Below the pieces are notes generated by a model. The model made no database searches. It saw only the letters and a list, made by a program, of their open reading frames with translations, and was not told the DNA's origin. The position numbers were made by a program, and so were the translations under genes. A stretch of DNA of 36,850 bases from a virus, in the IMG/VR virus record IMGVR_UViG_3300020457_001257, positions 1 to 36,850 of that record. One strand, given 5' to 3'. Each line of letters starts with the position of its first letter. Position 1 is the stretch's first letter. Of this stretch, positions 17,969 to 35,904 are shown in pieces.

Positions 17969-18570
17969 TTTAACTCACCATTATCCATATATTTAATTTC
18001 TTTTATATCTGATATAATATCTATCATAGCCCATTGACCAGATTTTTTAATCTTTTGATATAACAAAGCAAAAGATTTCATATATTTTTCAGGACCAACA
18101 CCAGCAATTTCATAATCGCCACACATTGATAATACTATTTGTACATTATGACCTTGTTCAGCCCACCTTAAAGCAGAGTAGTCTAAAGTTTTCCAAACAC
18201 AACCTGATAAGTTTTGTCCTGCTAAAATTACGTTTTTAATTTCCCAACCTGCTTTCTTGGCTTCTTTTTTTATCCAAGCAATAGAGTTTAATGGATTATC
18301 TTTGTCGTAGTCTGCCCATTTATCAGGTAGTTCTAACCAACAATATCTATCTTTGACTTCATCTTTTAGTTCCATCATTCTAGTATGGGTACCACTTTCT
18401 TGAAAGTCTTCCGATAATATAACCATATCTTTTATAGGGTGTTCAAATATTAACTCTTTTAATTTACTGAAACGCAAATCATTTAACTCCTTTTCTCCTA
18501 GGAGTTGATTGCCTTCAAAATCAATTAAGATAACACCTGTTGCAGGCTTAAGTCGGTGTGGATGATACAT
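17956..18570 (-). CDS. Possible isochorismatase-like cysteine hydrolase
   Basis: A 204-residue alpha/beta protein. The segment NVILAGQNLSGCVWKTLDYS (about 113-132) followed by ALRWAEQGHNVQIVLSMC looks like the nucleophile region of isochorismatase-like hydrolases, with Cys124 as candidate nucleophile. Asp17 in VILIDFEG would be the catalytic Asp and Lys84 (LPDKW) a possible catalytic Lys. The match is weak and the family is diverse, so the activity is open. Its ATG overlaps the stop of the QueC-like gene (TAATG), suggesting the two act together. Confidence 0.45.
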   Translation of the reverse strand: MYHPHRLKPATGVILIDFEGNQLLGEKELNDLRFSKLKELIFEHPIKDMVILSEDFQESGTHTRMMELKDEVKDRYCWLELPDKWADYDKDNPLNSIAWIKKEAKKAGWEIKNVILAGQNLSGCVWKTLDYSALRWAEQGHNVQIVLSMCGDYEIAGVGPEKYMKSFALLYQKIKKSGQWAMIDIISDIKEIKYMDNGELKCGE

Positions 18571-19337
18571 TAATCCTCAAATGCCCAATCCTTCTCATTA
18601 CACCAAAAACATTCACCACATGTTTCTTCGGTTGTTGACCAAGCACATGATTTAGTTAATGGATATAAAGTCTCCATTAAATTGTGTTCTTTAAAAACAC
18701 CTGCCACAAATTTTTTATCTACTCTTAAATACGGTGCATAAGTGTGACCACCATCAGGCCAATTTTCTGTTAATTGTTTCTCGCCATTTCCTGGATCACG
18801 TTTTCTTTCTGCTACTTCATAAAATCCTCTTTCTTTTTGTACTTCTACTGGAGGATTAGTAGTCATAGCCGATATTGCAGGCGTACTATGTGTATTAGAC
18901 ATTTCTGATCTAGCGGCTCTGTTTTGCATAGCTTTGGAACAACCGTTTAATGTTCCCCAAGTTCTTACCATTTCTCCTGTCTTTTCATTCTTGATAAAAC
19001 CTCTTTTAGGATCGTTAAACATTTTCTTTGCTTTTTCCTGCCATACAGGATCAGATGTTTTAACTTCATAAACTTTTAAGTCTTGAACACTGTTAGGAAA
19101 AGTGTCTTGTAAAAATTTATGTACGTTTTTTGCTTTTTCTGTATCTATTCTACCGTCTTCATCACTCATATGAAAAGGGTAAATTTTCATTTCGGGTAGA
19201 TACTTACCGATTAAGTAAACTAATGAAGATGAATCGCAACCACCTGATAAAGACACCACTGCTTTTTCTGGTAGGCCTTCAGGAAAATTTTGTTCATCAA
19301 ATAAGTCAACTGTTTGATTACCATATGTAAACTTCAT
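18570..19337 (-). CDS. QueC-like PP-loop ATPase, copy 1
   Basis: A 255-residue PP-loop ATPase. The ATP-pyrophosphatase signature SLSGGCDSS is at 29-37. The C-terminus has Cys231, Cys240, Cys243 and Cys246 (CGECFWC, then EKDWAF), the zinc site arrangement of QueC, which turns a 7-deazaguanine carboxylate into the nitrile preQ0 using ATP and ammonia. The central AMTTNPPVE segment differs from QueC, and no other queuosine genes are visible, so the substrate may be another carboxylate. TAAAGGAG precedes the start at 19337. It follows a radical SAM gene at a distance of 10 bases and has a paralogue at 25680. Confidence 0.75.
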   Translation of the reverse strand: MKFTYGNQTVDLFDEQNFPEGLPEKAVVSLSGGCDSSSLVYLIGKYLPEMKIYPFHMSDEDGRIDTEKAKNVHKFLQDTFPNSVQDLKVYEVKTSDPVWQEKAKKMFNDPKRGFIKNEKTGEMVRTWGTLNGCSKAMQNRAARSEMSNTHSTPAISAMTTNPPVEVQKERGFYEVAERKRDPGNGEKQLTENWPDGGHTYAPYLRVDKKFVAGVFKEHNLMETLYPLTKSCAWSTTEETCGECFWCNEKDWAFED

Positions 19338-19347
19338 TTTTTCTCCT

Positions 19348-20634
19348 TTAATAGTTTGTTTCTCTCTTAGCTTTTAAATAATGTTCTTCTAACTCCGGAT
19401 GTAGAGCAAACAAATCGTGTCCTTCTCTTTTACTAAAACCATTTTTATCTAAATCTTGACAATAGTCAATAGTTTTAATAAATTCTTCTACATCTTGTTC
19501 TTTGTTTAATGACTCAAGAATATTAGGATAATCCTTATATAGTGGTTTAAGTTTTTCCTTAATTTCTTTAGGCAAATTCTTTACTTGTAATATTCTCGGG
19601 TGTTCAATGATATAAAATGTATGTGCTATACCCATATCTTTTAACATCGCAATTAATTTATGATTTTCTAATACAGATAAGAAAGATATTACAGAGTGAA
19701 CATTAACTCTTGCATTTTTTCTTGATCTCATTAATTTCATATTTTCTACAAGTTGATTCCAATCAGATTTCTTTCTGATATAATCATTATATTTACCATA
19801 ACTGTCTATAGATATTTTCATAACAAACTCTTTGAAGTGAGGAAAATAATCTCTAAAGTTATAACCGTCCATATCAAATACAGATAAATTTGTTTTGTAT
19901 ATTAGGTCTATACCTTTTGAGTAACCTGTTGCTACTAATTTGTCTAATAGTTTATAATGATTTACCATAACTAAAGGTTCGCCACCAATTAGTTTGATTG
20001 ATCTAGTATACTTTGCTACAGAGGCAATATCATCCAAATACTTTTCATCATCATGTTTCATAGTATTCATTCTTTCGCCATCTTTAGGATCCAAATCTGG
20101 ATCGTATACTTTTTTTAATTTTTTTAGTGAGATAGTTCTAGTGTTAGCACTTCTTGGTGTACACATATAACAATCTAGATTACAAGCATTACCAAACATT
20201 TTCATTTTGATGTCTAGTATTCTTTCGTCAAAATCTTTTATATCTCCTTCGTCTATAAATTTCTGAACAGCCCTTAATAACTCTGGAACCTTACTATCAA
20301 ATGTACCTTTTAATATTTGTTCACTATATTTCATTCTATCTGAACGACCATACTTTTGTTCTTGTTTCCAACAACCTGTACAATGGTGTCTAAAAAATTT
20401 AGGATCCCAATCCTCTTTTAACATTTCTTTTCTTAATCTGTTTTGATATTCGGAAGTATACCATTCTTTAATAGATGTATCTTCCATATTGTGGCCAGTT
20501 CTTGCTAGTGCGTCATAACAAGGCGCAAATCTACCACTTAAACTAGAAAATATGTGTGTGAAAGGTAGAGGACAGAACCATAATTTTTTATCCTTTAACT
20601 TTTGTTCAAATTCTTTTTTCTGTTCTTCATTCAT
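19348..20634 (-). CDS. Radical SAM protein with N-terminal Cys-rich domain
   Basis: A 428-residue radical SAM enzyme. The [4Fe-4S]-binding CxxxCxxC is CNLDCYMC at 151-158, followed by the SAM-contacting IKLIGGEPL near 214-222. An extra set of cysteines precedes it (Cys21, Cys39, Cys85, Cys88: PLPFTHIFSSLSGRFAPC, HHCTGCW), resembling half of a SPASM/twitch domain placed before the barrel. The start at 20634 lies 6 bases after a GATAAATA late-type motif, with no Shine-Dalgarno sequence. The next gene downstream is the QueC-like ATPase, a pairing repeated in reverse order at 24832-26414. Substrate unknown. Confidence 0.85.
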   Translation of the reverse strand: MNEEQKKEFEQKLKDKKLWFCPLPFTHIFSSLSGRFAPCYDALARTGHNMEDTSIKEWYTSEYQNRLRKEMLKEDWDPKFFRHHCTGCWKQEQKYGRSDRMKYSEQILKGTFDSKVPELLRAVQKFIDEGDIKDFDERILDIKMKMFGNACNLDCYMCTPRSANTRTISLKKLKKVYDPDLDPKDGERMNTMKHDDEKYLDDIASVAKYTRSIKLIGGEPLVMVNHYKLLDKLVATGYSKGIDLIYKTNLSVFDMDGYNFRDYFPHFKEFVMKISIDSYGKYNDYIRKKSDWNQLVENMKLMRSRKNARVNVHSVISFLSVLENHKLIAMLKDMGIAHTFYIIEHPRILQVKNLPKEIKEKLKPLYKDYPNILESLNKEQDVEEFIKTIDYCQDLDKNGFSKREGHDLFALHPELEEHYLKAKRETNY

Positions 20635-24831: not shown

Positions 24832-25671
24832 TTATACATTTAATATATTACTATATTTTTCTATAGGAAAATGTCCTTTCGGTTGTACATATTCTTTGCA
24901 AGTCACACAATACTTTTCGTATTTAAATAATTGAAAATTCATCATCTTATCAATATTTTCTTTTGTCATAGGAAAAGACCTAGACAATTCAATGTTGTTT
25001 GCAAATTTTTTACTACAGTGTACTATATGCCTTTTTTCAAAGTCAATAACAGGCACCATAGGAAAAGCGGCACACATTTTACGGTCTATTTCAGCCGCTT
25101 GTTCGTGTACTGCTGTCACATCACCCTTTGTTGGTGTTCTACCATTGAACGCCTTAAACATGGTGTTTTTGTGATCTAATTTCTTTTGAAATTCTGGATA
25201 GTTCTCTACGTACTTAAAGTAGTTAGGTGTTTTAAGTACTACATTATAATTGTTCATTTCGTTTGGTCCGAAATAATCAAAGTTACCTAGTTTTTTAATT
25301 TCTTTAGGATAAAAATCTAATGTTAAGTGTTCTACATATAAGATTTCTGGATCCTCTAGTATTTCAGGATATCTTTTTCTTACGAAAGAGTTAGATAATA
25401 CTGAACATATAAAATTAGGATATTCTTTTATCATTGCTATCACTTCACGTAGATTTTTAATTAAACCTGGTTCACCACCTAGTAAACATATTCTGACTTT
25501 ATATTTACTTAATGCGTTTAATGTTTCTCTTAAAAAATCTAAATCTACTGTTAAGTTTCTCATTTCTAAAGTATAACTTGTGCAGTAGTGACAGTCTTTA
25601 TTACAAGACATTGATAAAAAGAAGTCTATCGCTAAATAATTTTTTTGTACGTATGTTAAATCAAACTTCAT
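24832..25671 (-). CDS. Radical SAM protein
   Basis: A 279-residue radical SAM enzyme. The cluster-binding motif CNKDCHYC is at 23-30, and RICLLGGEPG (near 67) gives the SAM-contacting GGEP. Later cysteines (HCSKKF, then YCVTCKEY near the C-terminus) may hold a second cluster. A start at 25689 would add six residues. I prefer 25671 because the AATAAATA motif at 25677-25684 lies exactly 5 bases before it, the same geometry as other late genes here, and it would overlap the longer start. It lies downstream of QueC-like copy 2 and 3 bases before the DUF59 gene. Substrate unknown. Confidence 0.82.
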   Translation of the reverse strand: MKFDLTYVQKNYLAIDFFLSMSCNKDCHYCTSYTLEMRNLTVDLDFLRETLNALSKYKVRICLLGGEPGLIKNLREVIAMIKEYPNFICSVLSNSFVRKRYPEILEDPEILYVEHLTLDFYPKEIKKLGNFDYFGPNEMNNYNVVLKTPNYFKYVENYPEFQKKLDHKNTMFKAFNGRTPTKGDVTAVHEQAAEIDRKMCAAFPMVPVIDFEKRHIVHCSKKFANNIELSRSFPMTKENIDKMMNFQLFKYEKYCVTCKEYVQPKGHFPIEKYSNILNV

Positions 25672-25676
25672 GCTAC

Positions 25677-25684
25677 TATTTATT
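25677..25684 (-). promoter_or_regulatory. Late-promoter-like motif AATAAATA
   Basis: Minus-strand AATAAATA, 5 bases before the ATG at 25671. It overlaps the stop codon of the QueC-like gene. One mismatch to TATAAATA, but with the exact spacing seen at the strong late promoters. Confidence 0.5.
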
Positions 25685-26414
25685 CCCATTTTAAATCAAA
25701 TGCCCAGGCTTTCTCAAAACACCAAAAGCACTCGTGACATTCTTGCGAATAGTTATCAGTCATTTCCTCATCGCCTACACATGAACGTGTAAGTGGAAAT
25801 AAACTATCCATTAAATCATTTTCTTTAAAAACAGCTGCGACAAACTTTTTGTCCACATTGGCAAATGGGAGATAGGATCTCCGGGGGCCCCTGGTGTTTC
25901 TCTGTTTGTCATTCTGGTTTCTCCTGGTTTCCGCCATATGAAACATTATAGGGTGTTTTTTCATATCTTCTATTGGTGGATTTCTAGTCATACCGTTTAT
26001 CATATATGCGTTAGGATATCTGTTTCTTAATTCGTCTCTTACTGTTGATAACTGTAAAGACTTTGATACTTGTTGTGCTGTCATTGTAGAAAAACTTGGA
26101 TCGTTTTTGATAGCTTCTTCAGCGGCTGGATATAACGCTTCGTTTCTATCATCATAATTTCTTTTTATTAAATCTTGTATATTCTGACTAGGAAATTTAT
26201 CTTGCATAAACTTTACAATCTTTTCGGCTGCCTGTATGTCATATGGATTATATACGTCTTGACAACTGTAAGATATAACTTCTACGTTAGGAAAGTGTTT
26301 GCATATCAAAAACATTACAGCGGCTGAGTCTGTACCACCTGATAATGATATTACGACTTGTTCTACTGGAAATTTAAAAAAATCAATTGTCTTGTCATTA
26401 TAAGTTATTTGCAT
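25680..26414 (-). CDS. QueC-like PP-loop ATPase, copy 2
   Basis: A 244-residue paralogue of the ATPase at 18570. PP-loop SLSGGTDS at 23-30. Central GMTRNPPIE matches AMTTNPPVE of copy 1. C-terminal zinc-type cysteines Cys212, Cys226, Cys229 and Cys232 (CHECFWC) are followed by EKAWAF. Both copies share VDKKFVA.VFKE and an LFPLTRSC-type segment. An unusual GC-rich patch near 25880-25930 encodes an Arg/Asn/Gln-rich loop absent from copy 1. The start overlaps the stop of the nitroreductase-like gene (TAATG) with a weak AGAG site. It probably activates a carboxylate as an adenylate; the substrate is unknown. Confidence 0.75.
   Translation of the reverse strand: MQITYNDKTIDFFKFPVEQVVISLSGGTDSAAVMFLICKHFPNVEVISYSCQDVYNPYDIQAAEKIVKFMQDKFPSQNIQDLIKRNYDDRNEALYPAAEEAIKNDPSFSTMTAQQVSKSLQLSTVRDELRNRYPNAYMINGMTRNPPIEDMKKHPIMFHMAETRRNQNDKQRNTRGPRRSYLPFANVDKKFVAAVFKENDLMDSLFPLTRSCVGDEEMTDNYSQECHECFWCFEKAWAFDLKWE
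25876..25932 (-). repeat. GC-rich patch with short AGAAACCAG-like repeats
   Basis: Within QueC-like copy 2, an imperfect short repeat (GAAACCAGG, AGAAACCAG, GAGAAACACCAGG on the minus strand) runs into the palindrome GGGGCCCC near 25884-25891. This is the most GC-rich spot I notice in very AT-rich DNA. It encodes a loop rich in Arg, Asn and Gln that the paralogue lacks. Confidence 0.5.
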
Positions 26415-30178: not shown

Positions 30179-30552
30179 TATTTTACATCCTTTGCTACTT
30201 CTTTACCTTTTTCATAATAAGTTTCAACTTTTATATTATCTTCTTTGCCTCTTGCTTTACAATGAAACAAACAAGTTTGATTAATCCTATTTAGGTTGTC
30301 TCCTACGTCTCTAGCCTGGACTAGGTCATCTTCAAATTCTTTCCATTCCTTTGTATCAAGTATCTCATCTATACTATTATAATCTTCTAACTTACTAACT
30401 TTATAAAGTGGTTTATACAATTCAGCCTTTGTTGTTTTAGGGTGGTCACACCAACAACAAGGTATTAAATGACCTCTATTATCTATTGCCAATGGCATAG
30501 GTTGAAAATCTTTATTATCTGGATCAGGTAAACATTTAGGTTTTAGTTTCAT
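30178..30552 (-). CDS. Stand-alone SPASM-like Fe-S domain protein
   Basis: A 124-residue protein with a cysteine pattern typical of the extra cluster domain of radical SAM enzymes: Cys7, then RGHLIPCCWC (Cys32, Cys33, Cys35), a SIDEILDTKEWKEF helix like those found between cysteines of SPASM domains, and Cys94 and Cys98 (QTCLFHC). It has no CxxxCxxC radical SAM motif of its own. It overlaps the radical SAM gene just upstream by ATGA, so it looks like the C-terminal part of one enzyme encoded as a separate chain. Whether the split is natural or due to an old frameshift is open. Confidence 0.6.
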   Translation of the reverse strand: MKLKPKCLPDPDNKDFQPMPLAIDNRGHLIPCCWCDHPKTTKAELYKPLYKVSKLEDYNSIDEILDTKEWKEFEDDLVQARDVGDNLNRINQTCLFHCKARGKEDNIKVETYYEKGKEVAKDVK

Positions 30553-31184
30553 CTTTCAGTACCTTTGTATACAGCCGCTTTTGATTTTAACGAGTTAGTT
30601 GGTTTAAAAGGATCGTCATCACTTAACCACCTTGATGATTCTATTTGTATAAAACTTAATCCTTCATCTTCGGCCATTTTCTTTGCAGTCTCTATATCAT
30701 TTTCATTATATTTAAATCTTATATATTGCCATACAGGTGTACTTAATAAATGTTTCTTGGCCTCTTTCATTATTTCAAACATTTTCTCCCCATCTTGGTT
30801 TTTCCTGTACTTGTGGCTATCTTTCGGTAAACCGTCACAAGCAAAAATCCAAACTGCTTTAGGATTTGCCTTAAATGATTTTACATACCACGACATTGGT
30901 TTAGCCGTAGCCGCATTATGAACAAACACCTCTGGTACATCTTTTAGTTCTTTCATTATCTCATTAAATTTAGGGTGATGTACAGGATCAGATAATTGAC
31001 CACAAAATCCTATATCTACAAAATGTTTTGCAATCATTTTTATTTCTTTCATAGTTAAATCACGGCCATGTGGTACTAAACCATAATTAGTAAATGATGT
31101 TTGCCTTTGACAATTAGGACATTCAAGTGGACACCTGTGTGTCACATCTAGATTTAATCTACGTCTTTGTTTAAAGTATGTCAT
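30549..31184 (-). CDS. Radical SAM protein, short core only
   Basis: A 211-residue radical SAM protein. CPLECPNC at 18-25 is the cluster motif (LDVTHRCPLECPNCQRQ). The rest is a shortened barrel: LTMKEIKMIAKHF, FCGQLSDPVHHPKF, where the GGEP segment is replaced by CGQLSDP, and FIQIESSRW. It lacks a C-terminal auxiliary-cluster domain, which is encoded by the overlapping next gene (30178). Similar short proteins are found among phage radical SAM genes, but the substrate is unknown. It starts 14 bases inside the end of the gene at 31171. Confidence 0.78.
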   Translation of the reverse strand: MTYFKQRRRLNLDVTHRCPLECPNCQRQTSFTNYGLVPHGRDLTMKEIKMIAKHFVDIGFCGQLSDPVHHPKFNEIMKELKDVPEVFVHNAATAKPMSWYVKSFKANPKAVWIFACDGLPKDSHKYRKNQDGEKMFEIMKEAKKHLLSTPVWQYIRFKYNENDIETAKKMAEDEGLSFIQIESSRWLSDDDPFKPTNSLKSKAAVYKGTER

Positions 31185-32096: not shown

Positions 32097-32104
32097 TATA
32101 AATA
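32097..32104 (+). promoter_or_regulatory. T4-type late promoter TATAAATA
   Basis: Exact TATAAATA, 24 bases before the ATG of the small gene at 32129, with TGGAGG as ribosome-binding site in the short leader. It is divergent to the sigma70-like promoter at 32046-32074. Confidence 0.7.
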
Positions 32105-32128: not shown

Positions 32129-32287
32129 ATGACTATAAAAGAAAAACATAAAGAGTTAAAAAAACAAGTTAACGAGGCTGAAATACGAAGACGGATTAGA
32201 AGAGGTCCGAAAAGTTGGTCAGATTTAAGAAGACTGAAGAAATTAAAACTGGCTATGAAAGATAAATTATTAAAAAGTAAAAAATGA
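32129..32287 (+). CDS. Small basic helical protein, 52 aa (DUF465/YdcH-like)
   Basis: A 52-residue protein beginning MTIKEKHKELKKQVNEAEIR and ending in LKSKK. It is almost entirely charged and helical, with a basic middle (RRRIRRGPKSW). Its helix-turn-helix layout recalls the small DUF465/YdcH proteins, a tentative comparison. TGGAGG lies 7 bases before the ATG, and a late promoter precedes it. Its TGA stop overlaps the ATG of the hydroxylase gene (ATGA), supporting a real gene. The basic charge may mean nucleic acid binding. Confidence 0.65.
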   Translation: MTIKEKHKELKKQVNEAEIRRRIRRGPKSWSDLRRLKKLKLAMKDKLLKSKK

Positions 32288-32745
32288 TAAAATTTCAATA
32301 CGATCTAGAGCGAATCAAAAAAGAGTTATCAACACTTCCTGAATATAAGAAACAGTTGTACTTACAAGGGTATTCAAAAGATATGAATCCCGAAGAAGGA
32401 GCTGGCGAAGGATATGCCATAGATAACGTAGAACAAACATACACGATACCTCTTTTTGATATACCATATATTAATGAGATTATGGAAGAACATAATCTAA
32501 CTAGAACGAGATTGATGAGAATGAAACCAAAATCCTGTTATCTATGGCATAACGATTTAACAAAAAGATTACATATACCAATTGAAACACATGAACATTG
32601 TTTTTTGATATTAGATAATGACCGATTTCATATACCAGCCACAGGCGAAGCGTATGTGATAGATACTACAAAAAAACATACGGCATTAAATTGTTCAACA
32701 ATAAACAGAGTTCACATTGTTGGAGGATTGCCGAGTGACTACTAG
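32284..32745 (+). CDS. Asp/Asn beta-hydroxylase-like 2OG-Fe(II) oxygenase
   Basis: A 153-residue protein with the cupin-type motifs of the aspartyl/asparaginyl beta-hydroxylase family: HxD at His89-Asp91 (CYLWHNDLTKRLHIPI), a distal His132 (KHTALN) and Arg142 (NRVHIV) to hold 2-oxoglutarate. The family hydroxylates Asp, Asn or Pro/Arg side chains in proteins or free amino acids. It is short, but includes all iron ligands. It overlaps the small gene upstream by ATGA and the radical SAM gene downstream by 11 bases, so all three are one late unit. The target is unknown. Confidence 0.75.
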   Translation: MIKFQYDLERIKKELSTLPEYKKQLYLQGYSKDMNPEEGAGEGYAIDNVEQTYTIPLFDIPYINEIMEEHNLTRTRLMRMKPKSCYLWHNDLTKRLHIPIETHEHCFLILDNDRFHIPATGEAYVIDTTKKHTALNCSTINRVHIVGGLPSDY

Positions 32746-34087
32746 ATTTCCTACAGCAGACGAAAGATGGCCTAGAGCAGGTGAAGTAATACCTGGAGAA
32801 ACTTTATATGACGCCGTTATTACATCTTTACCAGGTATGGACAAAAGTAAACCGGCACCTGGTCCTTCTTTTCTAAAAGGTTATCTGGAACCATTAGGTT
32901 TTAAAATCAAAGTCGTTGACGGTCATATGTACGACACGTTAGATAATATAGAAAAAGAAATATCAAAATACAATTTTAGATGGTTAGGTATATCAGTATT
33001 TTCTTTTATGCAAAAAGAAGATGGTTTAAATCTAGGTAAAAGATTTGAAAATGTATTTTATGGTGGTTCGGGTGTTGATATTAAATGGCCAACTCCATAT
33101 TACATAGTAGGAGAAGGAGAATATGCTTTACGTGAGTTCTTAAATGGTAATTTTGATTATCCAGGTATTAACGGAAAACAACCAGTACAGATAGAGAACA
33201 TAGAAGACTTACCACCACCAGATTATTCAGACGTAATACAACATCAAAAATATAGAAAGTTCGTAATATCAGGATCAAGAGGTTGCGTTAGAAACTGTAC
33301 CTTTTGTGATGTTGCAAGTATATGGCCTAAATTTAGATGGAAGACAGGTAAGAAAATCGCCGATGAAATGCACCAAGTATCTGAACAAACAGGTACAAAG
33401 AAAATACACTTTTCAGATTCATTAATTAACGGCTCTATGAAACATTTTAGAGATTTGTGTAGAGAGTTATCTAACAGACCTAAAAAAATTAAATGGGAGG
33501 CACAGTTTATTGTAAGAGATCAAAAGACTTTCTCACAAGAAGACTTTGACAACTTGTCAAACTCTGGTTGCAATGGACTAGAAATGGGTATAGAAGCAGG
33601 TAACGAGGAAGTTAGAGACCATATGAGAAAGAAATTTAGTAATGATGATATAAAATATTTTGTGGAAAATCTCGGAAAGCGGAATATAACTATGAAGTTC
33701 TTACTGATTGTCGGTTATCCCACGGAAACGGAAAAAATGTTTGAAGATACTCTACAATTATTGAGAGACTATGCCAAGTATTCACATTTAATTAGTATAT
33801 CGCACCACGTGATGATGACTTTTAAAAATACTCCATTAGATTTTGACCATAGAGAGTTATTTGATAGTGAGTTTGGATTTAAATGGAAAAATGAAAACTC
33901 TGATTTTGATATACGATTTGAAAGATTTATAAAAGTATATGAATTAGGAGTTAAACTAGGTTACCAATTTCAAGCACACTGTTTAGAAAAAATAGAAAGA
34001 TACAAATCCGATAAACTTAATGAAGATAGAAAGTCTATAGGATTTGCCCACCCTAAAGATAAAAATAAACTACACGTACAATCTTAA
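32735..34087 (+). CDS. Radical SAM protein with B12-binding-type N-terminal domain
   Basis: A 450-residue protein. The start is taken as GTG at 32735, 8 bases after GGAGG; an in-frame TTG at 32717 is less likely. Residues about 20-140 form a Rossmann-like domain ending in YYIVGEGEYALREFLNG (GEGE at 126-129), as in cobalamin-binding radical SAM enzymes. It lacks the DxHxxG motif of proteins that bind B12 through His, as do many of this class. The radical SAM motif is CVRNCTFC (184-191), followed by GLEMGIEAGNEEVRDHM and FLLIVGYPTE. The class includes C-methylases and other B12-dependent enzymes. The next gene is a B12 receptor. Confidence 0.85.
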   Translation: MTTRFPTADERWPRAGEVIPGETLYDAVITSLPGMDKSKPAPGPSFLKGYLEPLGFKIKVVDGHMYDTLDNIEKEISKYNFRWLGISVFSFMQKEDGLNLGKRFENVFYGGSGVDIKWPTPYYIVGEGEYALREFLNGNFDYPGINGKQPVQIENIEDLPPPDYSDVIQHQKYRKFVISGSRGCVRNCTFCDVASIWPKFRWKTGKKIADEMHQVSEQTGTKKIHFSDSLINGSMKHFRDLCRELSNRPKKIKWEAQFIVRDQKTFSQEDFDNLSNSGCNGLEMGIEAGNEEVRDHMRKKFSNDDIKYFVENLGKRNITMKFLLIVGYPTETEKMFEDTLQLLRDYAKYSHLISISHHVMMTFKNTPLDFDHRELFDSEFGFKWKNENSDFDIRFERFIKVYELGVKLGYQFQAHCLEKIERYKSDKLNEDRKSIGFAHPKDKNKLHVQS

Positions 34088-35691
34088 AAAGATTTATTAA
34101 ATCCTAAAGTAAATTTTCTTCCTTCTTGACTAAACCCATGAGGTGATTCATAATTTTCATCAAATAGATTTAACAAACTAATACCAAAGTCTATACCATG
34201 CCAATTATATCCAAGATTTAAATCTAACAAATGTGTTTCTGGCATTGATATGGTTGACCAATTAGAATTGTGTACATCTAAATGTTTGCCTTTATATTTG
34301 TAATTAGTAGTTAAAGAAAAGTTATTTTCTAAATCTTTTGTATGCATAAATCCAAGAGACCAATTAGGTCTTCTTAATTGTACTACATCACCTTTTTTAC
34401 TATTTAAATGACTAATAAAAAATTTAGAGTTTTCTTGATTATAACTAAACTCTATACCGTCAGTATTTAAATCGCCAATATCATTTTTAAATATAGTTGT
34501 TGCAAAATTATTTTTAGTTAATGTTAACTCTTGTGATTCTCCATATTCAATAGCAGTCCATGTTGTTTTATCTTTATAACTTGTTGATGTACTACCACTT
34601 ATACTTAAACCATCTTCTATCTCTTTAAAGAAACCTAATTTATATGTTTCGTGTTCCTCATCAAACCTATGATGATATGAAAATATATTATGTGAAAAAT
34701 TAAAGAAGTATCCTAAATTATGATGTTGACCTGTTAATGATTCATTATGTTTGTAATCAAAACCAAATCCATATTTTTGTTTTTGATGTGTGCCTCTTAT
34801 AGTATAGTTTTCACTTTCATAATGAGCATTATCATAATCTCTATCATATTCGTGTGTATGAAAAGTTAAACTGTTATTTAAATAATCAACACCTGTTTGT
34901 AAGGCAAAGAAAGTATTATCTGCCCATTTGCCGTCTTGTATAGAAACATTATGACCATCTATATCAGTGAAAGTGTTTCTTGCAAACCAAGATGTTCGCC
35001 AATGTACAAGATCGTACCATTTACTTACATTAACACCTATTGTTTTATTATTTGTTCCATCTTTTTCGTCAGCACCTGATAAAGCAGAAACGTTTTGTGA
35101 TTTATGCTCACCTGCTGAAACAGATATATCAAAGTCATTTAATCTAGTATAATAATTACCACTAATAGTTTTATCATTACCATTACCTGATAAACTTAAT
35201 CTTTTATCATAATCTACTGTTGTTCTAAAATTAATTGCACCACCAACAGCGTCTGCTCCCCAATGAGCACCTTGTGACCCTTTGTATACATCTATTTGTA
35301 CAACATTGAACATAAAGTCTTGACCAACATCATGGGCACCTGTAGGTGTAGAGTAATCATTGATTGGTATTCCATTTAATAATACTAATGTGTGATTAGA
35401 GTTTGTGCCTCTTAAAAATAAAGATGATTGTTGACCTGTCGGACCTGATTGAGTTATGTCTAAGCCTTGAACATAGTTTAATACTTTAGGTAAATCAATT
35501 AGATTATACTTTTCAATTTCAGATTTTTTAATTGTATGAGTAGGTGTTATCTTGTCACCTAATGCGTTTGAATTGTTTATATTTGGATATATTGTAATAC
35601 AAGGAATATCATCATTCCAATTACAATCACTATCCTTGGAATAGGCAACATTAGCCCACACCAAGATTAACATAAGAATTAATCTTATCAT
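34084..35691 (-). CDS. btuB: BtuB: TonB-dependent vitamin B12 outer-membrane receptor
   Basis: A 535-residue BtuB homologue. A signal peptide (about residues 1-18, cut after AYS) precedes the plug. QGLDITQSGPTGQQSSLFLR then GTNSNHTLVLLNGIPIND match E. coli BtuB closely, as do WGADAVGGAINF and the C-terminal LLNLFDENYESPHGFSQEGR, ending in the terminal Phe needed for barrel assembly. It is about 80 residues shorter than E. coli BtuB, with loops in the last third trimmed. A typical TonB box is not obvious near residues 28-45. AAGGAG lies 5 bases before the ATG. Expression is controlled by the cobalamin riboswitch at 35711. The stop shares TTAA with the convergent radical SAM gene. Confidence 0.93.
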   Translation of the reverse strand: MIRLILMLILVWANVAYSKDSDCNWNDDIPCITIYPNINNSNALGDKITPTHTIKKSEIEKYNLIDLPKVLNYVQGLDITQSGPTGQQSSLFLRGTNSNHTLVLLNGIPINDYSTPTGAHDVGQDFMFNVVQIDVYKGSQGAHWGADAVGGAINFRTTVDYDKRLSLSGNGNDKTISGNYYTRLNDFDISVSAGEHKSQNVSALSGADEKDGTNNKTIGVNVSKWYDLVHWRTSWFARNTFTDIDGHNVSIQDGKWADNTFFALQTGVDYLNNSLTFHTHEYDRDYDNAHYESENYTIRGTHQKQKYGFGFDYKHNESLTGQHHNLGYFFNFSHNIFSYHHRFDEEHETYKLGFFKEIEDGLSISGSTSTSYKDKTTWTAIEYGESQELTLTKNNFATTIFKNDIGDLNTDGIEFSYNQENSKFFISHLNSKKGDVVQLRRPNWSLGFMHTKDLENNFSLTTNYKYKGKHLDVHNSNWSTISMPETHLLDLNLGYNWHGIDFGISLLNLFDENYESPHGFSQEGRKFTLGFNKSF

Positions 35692-35696
35692 TGAGT

Positions 35697-35702
35697 CTCC
35701 TT
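35697..35702 (-). promoter_or_regulatory. Ribosome-binding site of btuB under riboswitch control
   Basis: AAGGAG, 5 bases before the ATG and only 8 bases after the closing stem of the riboswitch. The close spacing suggests that ligand binding controls access of ribosomes rather than termination. Confidence 0.6.
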
Positions 35703-35710
35703 GCTCGTTT

Positions 35711-35803: not shown

Positions 35804-35868
35804 GGCCGGAGTCTACACTATGGGTGGAAATACTCCTAGCCGGCCACTAGGTTTCCTACGTGTAGACT
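35804..35868 (-). ncRNA. Structured pseudoknot RNA element in the btuB leader
   Basis: On the minus strand AGTCTACAC (35860-35868) pairs with GTGTAGACT (35810-35818). Inside, GGAAA can pair with TTTCC and CCTAG with CTAGG, leaving a 7-base loop TGGCCGG. The loop GGCCGG is complementary to CCGGCC (35804-35809), which directly follows the outer stem, giving a pseudoknot. The element begins one base after the predicted transcription start and precedes the riboswitch. I do not recognise the class; it could be a second sensor, a ribozyme or a protective 5' structure. Confidence 0.6.
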
Positions 35869-35875
35869 ATATTAT

Positions 35876-35904
35876 ATAGTATCACATTTAATCCAAAATG
35901 GCAA
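35876..35904 (-). promoter_or_regulatory. Sigma70-like promoter of btuB
   Basis: Minus-strand TTGCCA (35899-35904) and TACTAT (35876-35881) with a 17-base spacer; a TATAAT follows at 35871-35876. Initiation is expected near 35869, which is where the structured leader begins. This is a host-type promoter, so early expression is likely. Confidence 0.65.

Follow-up and report, generated by a model that had tools for sequence, protein, structure and literature searches.

A putative B12 import-and-use module in a T4-like marine phage: a radical SAM gene convergent with a riboswitch-led btuB

Class 1 cobalamin-dependent radical S-adenosylmethionine (radical SAM, rSAM) enzymes, among them OxsB, TsrM, TokK, CysS, and MgmA, have an N-terminal Rossmann domain ahead of the barrel, a CxxxCxxC motif, a GG pair after strand 4 and GEGE after strand 5, and both MgmA and OxsB have been shown with cobalamin (PMC11796369, PMC13331322). 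These features, together with a full-length structural match, are shared by the product of a gene in IMG/VR record IMGVR_UViG_3300020457_001257, a 36.9-kb viral fragment analyzed over its whole length and referred to here as the window. The rSAM gene converges with btuB, a gene for a vitamin B12 receptor that lies behind an AdoCbl-II (cobalamin) riboswitch, and we consider it probable that the two form a phage-borne module for importing and using B12. The gene identities, the riboswitch, the fold match and the recurrent linkage of the genes are the part of this reading that is directly established.

Described counterparts resemble the locus in parts. In the OM43 phage host H5P1 a cobalamin riboswitch likewise lies directly upstream of a BtuB-type receptor gene (PMC9004378), whereas the window's btuB is on a phage, has a riboswitch of the AdoCbl-II class, encodes a short receptor of 535 residues and is adjoined by the gene for a phage enzyme. 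Glutamine riboswitches occur in marine myophages of the Melnitz/Mosig type, whose genomes are also of pelagimyophage type, but their ligand and target differ from those proposed here (PMC9004378). A study of pelagimyophages reported no riboswitches (PMC7029224), and we found no phage B12 riboswitch in the open-licence papers searched. A B12-binding rSAM protein is encoded by Streptomyces phage SF3 (NC_028952); it is 22% identical to the window protein over 67% of the latter's length, but the 6 kb around its gene carry no annotation of a receptor or a riboswitch.

The window derives from a T4-like marine myophage related to the phages that infect SAR11. Judged by the gp6-like baseplate protein, the nearest isolate is Pelagibacter phage Mosig (71.5% identity), while the proteins of Melnitz and HTVC008M are 55% identical to the window's. 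The annotation of the Mosig region L059 lists neither an rSAM nor a TonB receptor. Labels of the forms L### and G### denote compared contigs or genomes, and an rSAM is called window-type if it is at least 53% identical to that of the window.

The radical SAM gene and the riboswitch-led receptor gene

The elements of the convergent pair are as follows.

32735..34087, plus strand: rSAM enzyme of 450 residues (open reading frame calls; Pfam PF04055, Radical_SAM, 1.4e-20)
34084..35691, minus strand: BtuB-like TonB-dependent receptor of 535 residues, with plug and signal peptide (by eye) (PF07715, TIGR01779, PDB BtuB)
35693..35706, minus strand: expression platform GAGCAAGGAGACTC, comprising the Shine-Dalgarno sequence AAGGAG and a CAAG that can pair with the CUUG of the aptamer loop
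35713..35793, minus strand: AdoCbl-II (cobalamin) riboswitch aptamer (RF01689, 71.7 bits against a gathering threshold of 36.5, full model 1-81)
35876..35904, minus strand: sigma-70-like btuB promoter, TTGCCA-17-TACTAT with TG, recognized by eye and without statistics

A first-pass annotation of the window, made from its sequence alone, had described an rSAM gene convergent with btuB. Both genes are open and were placed correctly to the base, and the sequence bears out that their stops overlap in the TTAA at 34084-34087 (rSAM stop TAA at 34085-34087, receptor stop at 34086-34084). The rSAM gene starts with GTG at 32735, preceded by GGAGG at 32722-32726, the alternative mechanical start being a TTG at 32717, and its 5′ end is overlapped by the end of a hydroxylase-like gene (32284-32745).

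The sequence CVRNCTFC, at residues 184-191 of the rSAM protein, supplies a CxxxCxxC motif whose three cysteines are invariant in 18 aligned family members, and GEGE, at residues 126-129, is nearly conserved across the same members; both had been singled out by the annotation. In relatives down to 29% identity P33, S87 (nearly), GGxG at 110-113 and GEGE (nearly) are kept. The protein lacks DxHxxG, as had also been noted; a DGHMYD sequence occurs after strand 2, the wrong position for an axial-histidine motif, and was not counted. A Pfam search matched the radical SAM core alone. The best NCBIfam matches are mostly B12-rSAM families (PhpK, 104 bits; TIGR04072, 91 bits), and as all scores are far below the cut-off the protein belongs to none of the matched families. 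Assignment to the MiaB/RimO methylthiotransferases was rejected (TIGR00089, 55 bits against a cut-off of 251; no cysteine before residue 184 for a second cluster), as was assignment to the AprD4-type dehydratases (NF033070, 50.4 bits against an equivalog cut-off of 500). Searching GenBank phages by tblastn with the rSAM returned distant proteins only.

The receptor has a plug domain (PF07715, Plug, 2.7e-18), and its best NCBIfam model is TIGR01779 (1.5e-29, 103 bits), whose equivalog cut-off of 599.7 bits it does not reach, the barrel being short and divergent. Its best sequence match in the PDB is BtuB (2e-24). With the AdoCbl-II riboswitch, which the annotation had missed and which is the strongest evidence for B12, TIGR01779 and PDB BtuB constitute three independent signs of a B12 receptor, and the annotation's proposal of B12 import is thus well supported.

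The riboswitch ends 21 nt ahead of the btuB start codon, and an Rfam scan found no second riboswitch in the leader. In viral contigs it is kept ahead of 24 out of 27 related genes for btuB: in a set of 43 contigs collected with the rSAM and receptor proteins, all 24 that have the riboswitch are within the 27 that have btuB, and the remaining three are G016 and G017, which have only ~61 bp ahead of btuB, and G023. In L020 and L026 the aptamer loop is CCAGG and the downstream element CCTGG, both sides having changed together in compensatory fashion, and the pairing of CUUG with CAAG, likewise recognized by eye, is a putative L5/L13 kissing loop. We infer that control is exerted at translation, because the stretch ahead of the ATG is too short for a terminator. 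The btuB promoter of relatives reads TTGCCA-17-TATACT. Between promoter and riboswitch the window has an inserted hairpin of ~55 nt, GTCTACAC...GTGTAGAC (35812-35866, minus strand), which is not in the other aligned leaders and has no Rfam match above gathering.

Recurrence of the pair

Co-occurrence was assessed in 43 contigs that have a window-type rSAM and a visible downstream side. The convergent pair recurs in 32 of these viral or metagenome-assembled genome (MAG) contigs, 20 with a receptor like that of the window (type 1) and 12 with a divergent receptor (type 2), while 11 have no receptor. Type 2 is ~26% identical to type 1, and its best model is likewise TIGR01779. The slot beside the rSAM gene holds either receptor 1 with the riboswitch or receptor 2 with a gene for a DUF6580 membrane protein, so that two different receptors, each with its own B12 sign, fill the same slot. 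The first-pass annotation had held that the regular absence of one gene from related phages would speak against the pairing; this is true in part, in that the 11 contigs lack a receptor. The co-occurrence is one-sided: a receptor without an rSAM was seen only in two incomplete contigs, G014 of 16 kb and G023 of 62 kb.

DUF6580 (PF20221) adjoins the receptor in all cases checked, namely three type-2 contigs and L125. The genes found beside phage B12-type receptors include those listed below; others are on the contigs of L037, L040, and L051.

L063:1692-2135, minus strand: DUF6580 protein
L082:3576-4022, minus strand: DUF6580 protein
L125:5975-6406, minus strand: DUF6580 protein

L125 (PACV01000025) is an 8.5-kb contig titled as part of Flavobacteriaceae MAG NAT163; it has the hydroxylase gene, an rSAM gene (70%), receptor 2, DUF6580, and phage genes, and is likely a phage piece of the window's group that was mis-binned into a bacterial MAG. 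In L163, a contig of the class of G045 from a MAG titled Flavobacteriaceae, genes for a TonB receptor, DUF6580, cobinamide kinase (CobU), and CobT stand in a row. Because the receptor, cobinamide kinase and CobT genes adjoin it, we tie DUF6580 to B12 salvage and regard it as a candidate B12 transport protein. No riboswitch was found in 20 DUF6580 loci of the class of G045.

The receptor could instead be a surface decoy or superinfection-exclusion factor made by the phage, importing no nutrient. Some phages use BtuB as their receptor, and host receptors can be masked by a phage; this general background is what suggests a decoy, and none of our results favors one. Control by a B12 riboswitch, pairing with DUF6580 and an adjoining B12-type enzyme would make no sense for a decoy, and we regard this explanation as very improbable.

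An independent view of the linkage came from a scan with a DNA pattern for the riboswitch that was blind to the rSAM. It yielded three unrelated contigs, L063 (48 kb), L069 (172 kb), and L082 (115 kb), in each of which the riboswitch stands ahead of a TonB receptor gene and a gene for an rSAM 33-37% identical to the window's lies at 1.9, 0.6, and 0.5 kb, respectively. In L069 a single strand carries, in this order, the riboswitch, the receptor gene, thyX and the rSAM gene, the ends of the genes overlapping in an apparent operon, and because of this arrangement the rSAM of L069 is probably under control of the riboswitch. The rSAM gene is 1 kb upstream in L026 and 13 kb distant in L020. For the five rSAM distances, random placement within each contig gives a combined Fisher P of 0.0007.

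The window's expression platform recurs unchanged in L063 and L069 and nearly so in L082. Aptamer and platform together are near-identical to the window's in all three contigs, whereas the receptors are just 26-41% identical, as if the riboswitch RNA moved between phages independently of the gene that follows it. A blastn search of GenBank phages with the riboswitch found none.

Fold and cofactor of the radical SAM protein

An AlphaFold2 model of the rSAM protein was built on the 18-row family alignment (predicted local distance difference test score, pLDDT, 82.9) and compared with the PDB using VIA-align 2. Over the full length, the Z scores were 28.0 for MgmA, 27.9 for AprD4, 26.4 for OxsB, 24.6 for TsrM, and 23.5 for CysS, and all five aligned to the model from the N-terminal domain onward (MgmA, OxsB, and TsrM from residue 12-26). 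This domain, at about residues 23-136, is a Rossmann domain of the cobalamin-binding kind with five parallel strands (24-31, 58-61, 80-87, 107-110, and 123-124, the last of two residues only), for which pLDDT is mostly 81-96. Still present in the model are helices 1 and 5, which in methionine synthase lie on either side of the nucleotide tail. A profile of the N-terminal domain of the wide family matched CysS (E = 0.0006) and TokK (E = 0.001), its matches to TM0182 (0.16) and the cobalamin-binding protein 1y80 (0.84) being below significance. The B12-binding domain PF02310 is itself reached by two rSAM relatives, L123 (32.9 bits) and L069 (33.1 bits with its neighbors in frame).

In class 1 enzymes the loop that follows strand 3 supplies the residue below the cobalt, which is Asn186 in OxsB, Arg69 in TsrM, and Trp76 in TokK (PMC13331322). 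The corresponding column of the wide rSAM family holds Met, Leu, Glu, Gln, Asn, Tyr, or Trp, the Trp being in register with TokK Trp76. Compared with the class 1 enzymes, the window family has Met, Leu, or Glu there, and the window rSAM itself has Met92 in the alignment. As lower-axial residues vary among such enzymes (PMC13331322, PMC11796369), this column is a weak discriminator. The window protein further differs from class 1 enzymes in its short second-strand region, and it is shorter than TokK and CysS.

Several observations must be set against cobalamin use and against the module as a whole. The Pfam search found no match to PF02310 in the window rSAM, and helix 4, between GG and GEGE, has been lost from the window type, in which the segment is 14 residues long as opposed to 20-21 in CysS and TokK. 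AprD4 (6fd2) ties with MgmA in structural score and has the same domain order and size. AprD4 is a radical SAM diol dehydratase that acts on aminoglycosides and, to our knowledge, works without cobalamin; because it scores like the cobalamin-bound MgmA, the fold alone leaves cofactor use undecided. Among the 11 window-type contigs in which no receptor adjoins the rSAM gene one is of 64 kb, and relatives of the rSAM occur without receptor and AdoCbl-II riboswitch on contigs of 300, 262, 137, and 72 kb; the receptor-less cases fit an enzyme living on host B12 and also a chance partnership. When the five distances are pooled to three lineages, taking the worse value of each, P rises to 0.013, and the test ignores the clustering of metabolic genes in phage islands. 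Finally, further PF02310 proteins, of a longer kind (630-650 residues), are encoded in L063, L069, and L082 and are possible B12 users.

Part of this evidence would fit an rSAM that has the fold of the cobalamin domain but makes no use of cobalamin, with the receptor gene having come into this variable slot separately, as a cassette of its own. The trimmed domain, the tie with AprD4, the 11 contigs without receptor and the presence of btuB with its riboswitch in other contexts (L014, L020/L026) all agree with this. However, the AprD4 model is matched weakly, at 50 bits as opposed to 104 for PhpK and 91 for TIGR04072; relatives of the rSAM are linked to receptor and riboswitch again in L026, L063, L069, and L082, with the apparent operon in L069; and receptor type 1 is replaced by type 2 at the same place. 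On balance, we think a non-cobalamin enzyme beside an unrelated cassette unlikely.

The imported B12 might alternatively go to enzymes of the host (methionine synthase, for instance) or to further B12 proteins that the phage encodes off the contig, leaving the rSAM a mere neighbor whether or not it binds B12. The longer PF02310 proteins would suit such a role, the btuB and rSAM units of the window are separate transcripts with different promoter types, and in L014 and L023 btuB lies near class I ribonucleotide reductase genes with no rSAM in the contig. A class II ribonucleotide reductase was considered as the B12 user and rejected, the reductases found in long contigs being far below the NrdJ cut-off. 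Against this explanation also stand the search of the 43 window-clade contigs, which turned up no other PF02310 protein, and the recurrence of the rSAM gene as a close neighbor of the receptor, and we judge it unlikely.

Use of cobalamin by the rSAM, which the first-pass annotation had left conditional, is supported by the fold match, the relatives that reach PF02310 and the recurrent linkage to B12 riboswitch and receptor. The structural comparison that the annotation had called for returned a full-length match to B12-rSAM enzymes and left two reservations, the trimmed domain and the equal score of AprD4. Our reading is that the rSAM probably does use cobalamin.

Expression, proposed mechanism and significance

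Three elements lie upstream of the rSAM gene.

32097..32104, plus strand: T4-type late promoter TATAAATA, ahead of the unit of small open reading frame, hydroxylase and rSAM genes
32129..32287, plus strand: small open reading frame of 52 residues, overlapping the start of the hydroxylase open reading frame (read from sequence)
32284..32745, plus strand: Asp/Asn beta-hydroxylase-like protein of 153 residues (PF05118, 9.6e-8)

The hydroxylase gene is the constant partner of the rSAM gene, being directly upstream of the window-type rSAM wherever the flank is present. The window has seven TATAAATA sites on the plus strand and none on the minus strand, where base composition predicts about six on each, and six of the seven sit 13-31 nt ahead of a plus-strand gene; the site is also found upstream of the hydroxylase gene in 18 of 23 sequences checked. 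To judge from this promoter the rSAM is apparently a late gene, and with a sigma-70-like promoter ahead of btuB, import would precede the enzyme, which would be made late, with the virion genes. The late promoter and the hydroxylase partner are the sole grounds on which we propose a virion or glycan substrate.

In several phages a small protein (~160-195 residues), which had no Pfam match in the two cases tested, is encoded after an rSAM of the longer type, and it is a possible substrate or partner of that rSAM.

L026:6794-7351, plus strand: small protein behind longer-type rSAM
L063:3158-3643, minus strand: the same
L069:7345-7929, plus strand: the same
L127:3791-4300, plus strand: the same
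L132:2557-3066, plus strand: the same

Elsewhere in the window, a sugar/surface island of the phage contains three more radical SAM genes (19348-20634, 24832-25689, and 30549-31184, all on the minus strand), two QueC-like genes (18570-19337 and 25680-26414), and genes for a carbamoyltransferase and a DegT aminotransferase.

The module that we favor might work as follows. In an infected cell short of B12, the riboswitch would leave the btuB Shine-Dalgarno sequence free, and the receptor would be made from the host-like sigma-70 promoter. Once B12 is bound, the L5/L13 kissing loop would cover the Shine-Dalgarno sequence and turn the receptor off, as sequence and covariation suggest. B12 would then be imported by the receptor together with TonB and the inner-membrane transport of the host, to which the phage DUF6580 membrane protein may contribute in sister phages. 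Late in infection, the rSAM, made together with its hydroxylase-like partner, would bind the imported cobalamin base-off in its trimmed Rossmann domain and catalyze a radical reaction. C-methylation is the likeliest such reaction, and its target is probably a virion protein or a glycan of the surface.

More tentatively, and here we rate the chances as somewhat short of even, several marine phage lineages may use a B12 riboswitch to control a phage receptor, in some joined by DUF6580, that feeds a late cobalamin-dependent rSAM modifying parts of the virion. Seawater is poor in B12, which most marine bacteria are unable to synthesize. If the proposal is correct, B12 would become a currency of infection, with phage fitness tied to the vitamin supply, and the unassigned B12-type rSAM genes of phages would gain a testable function.

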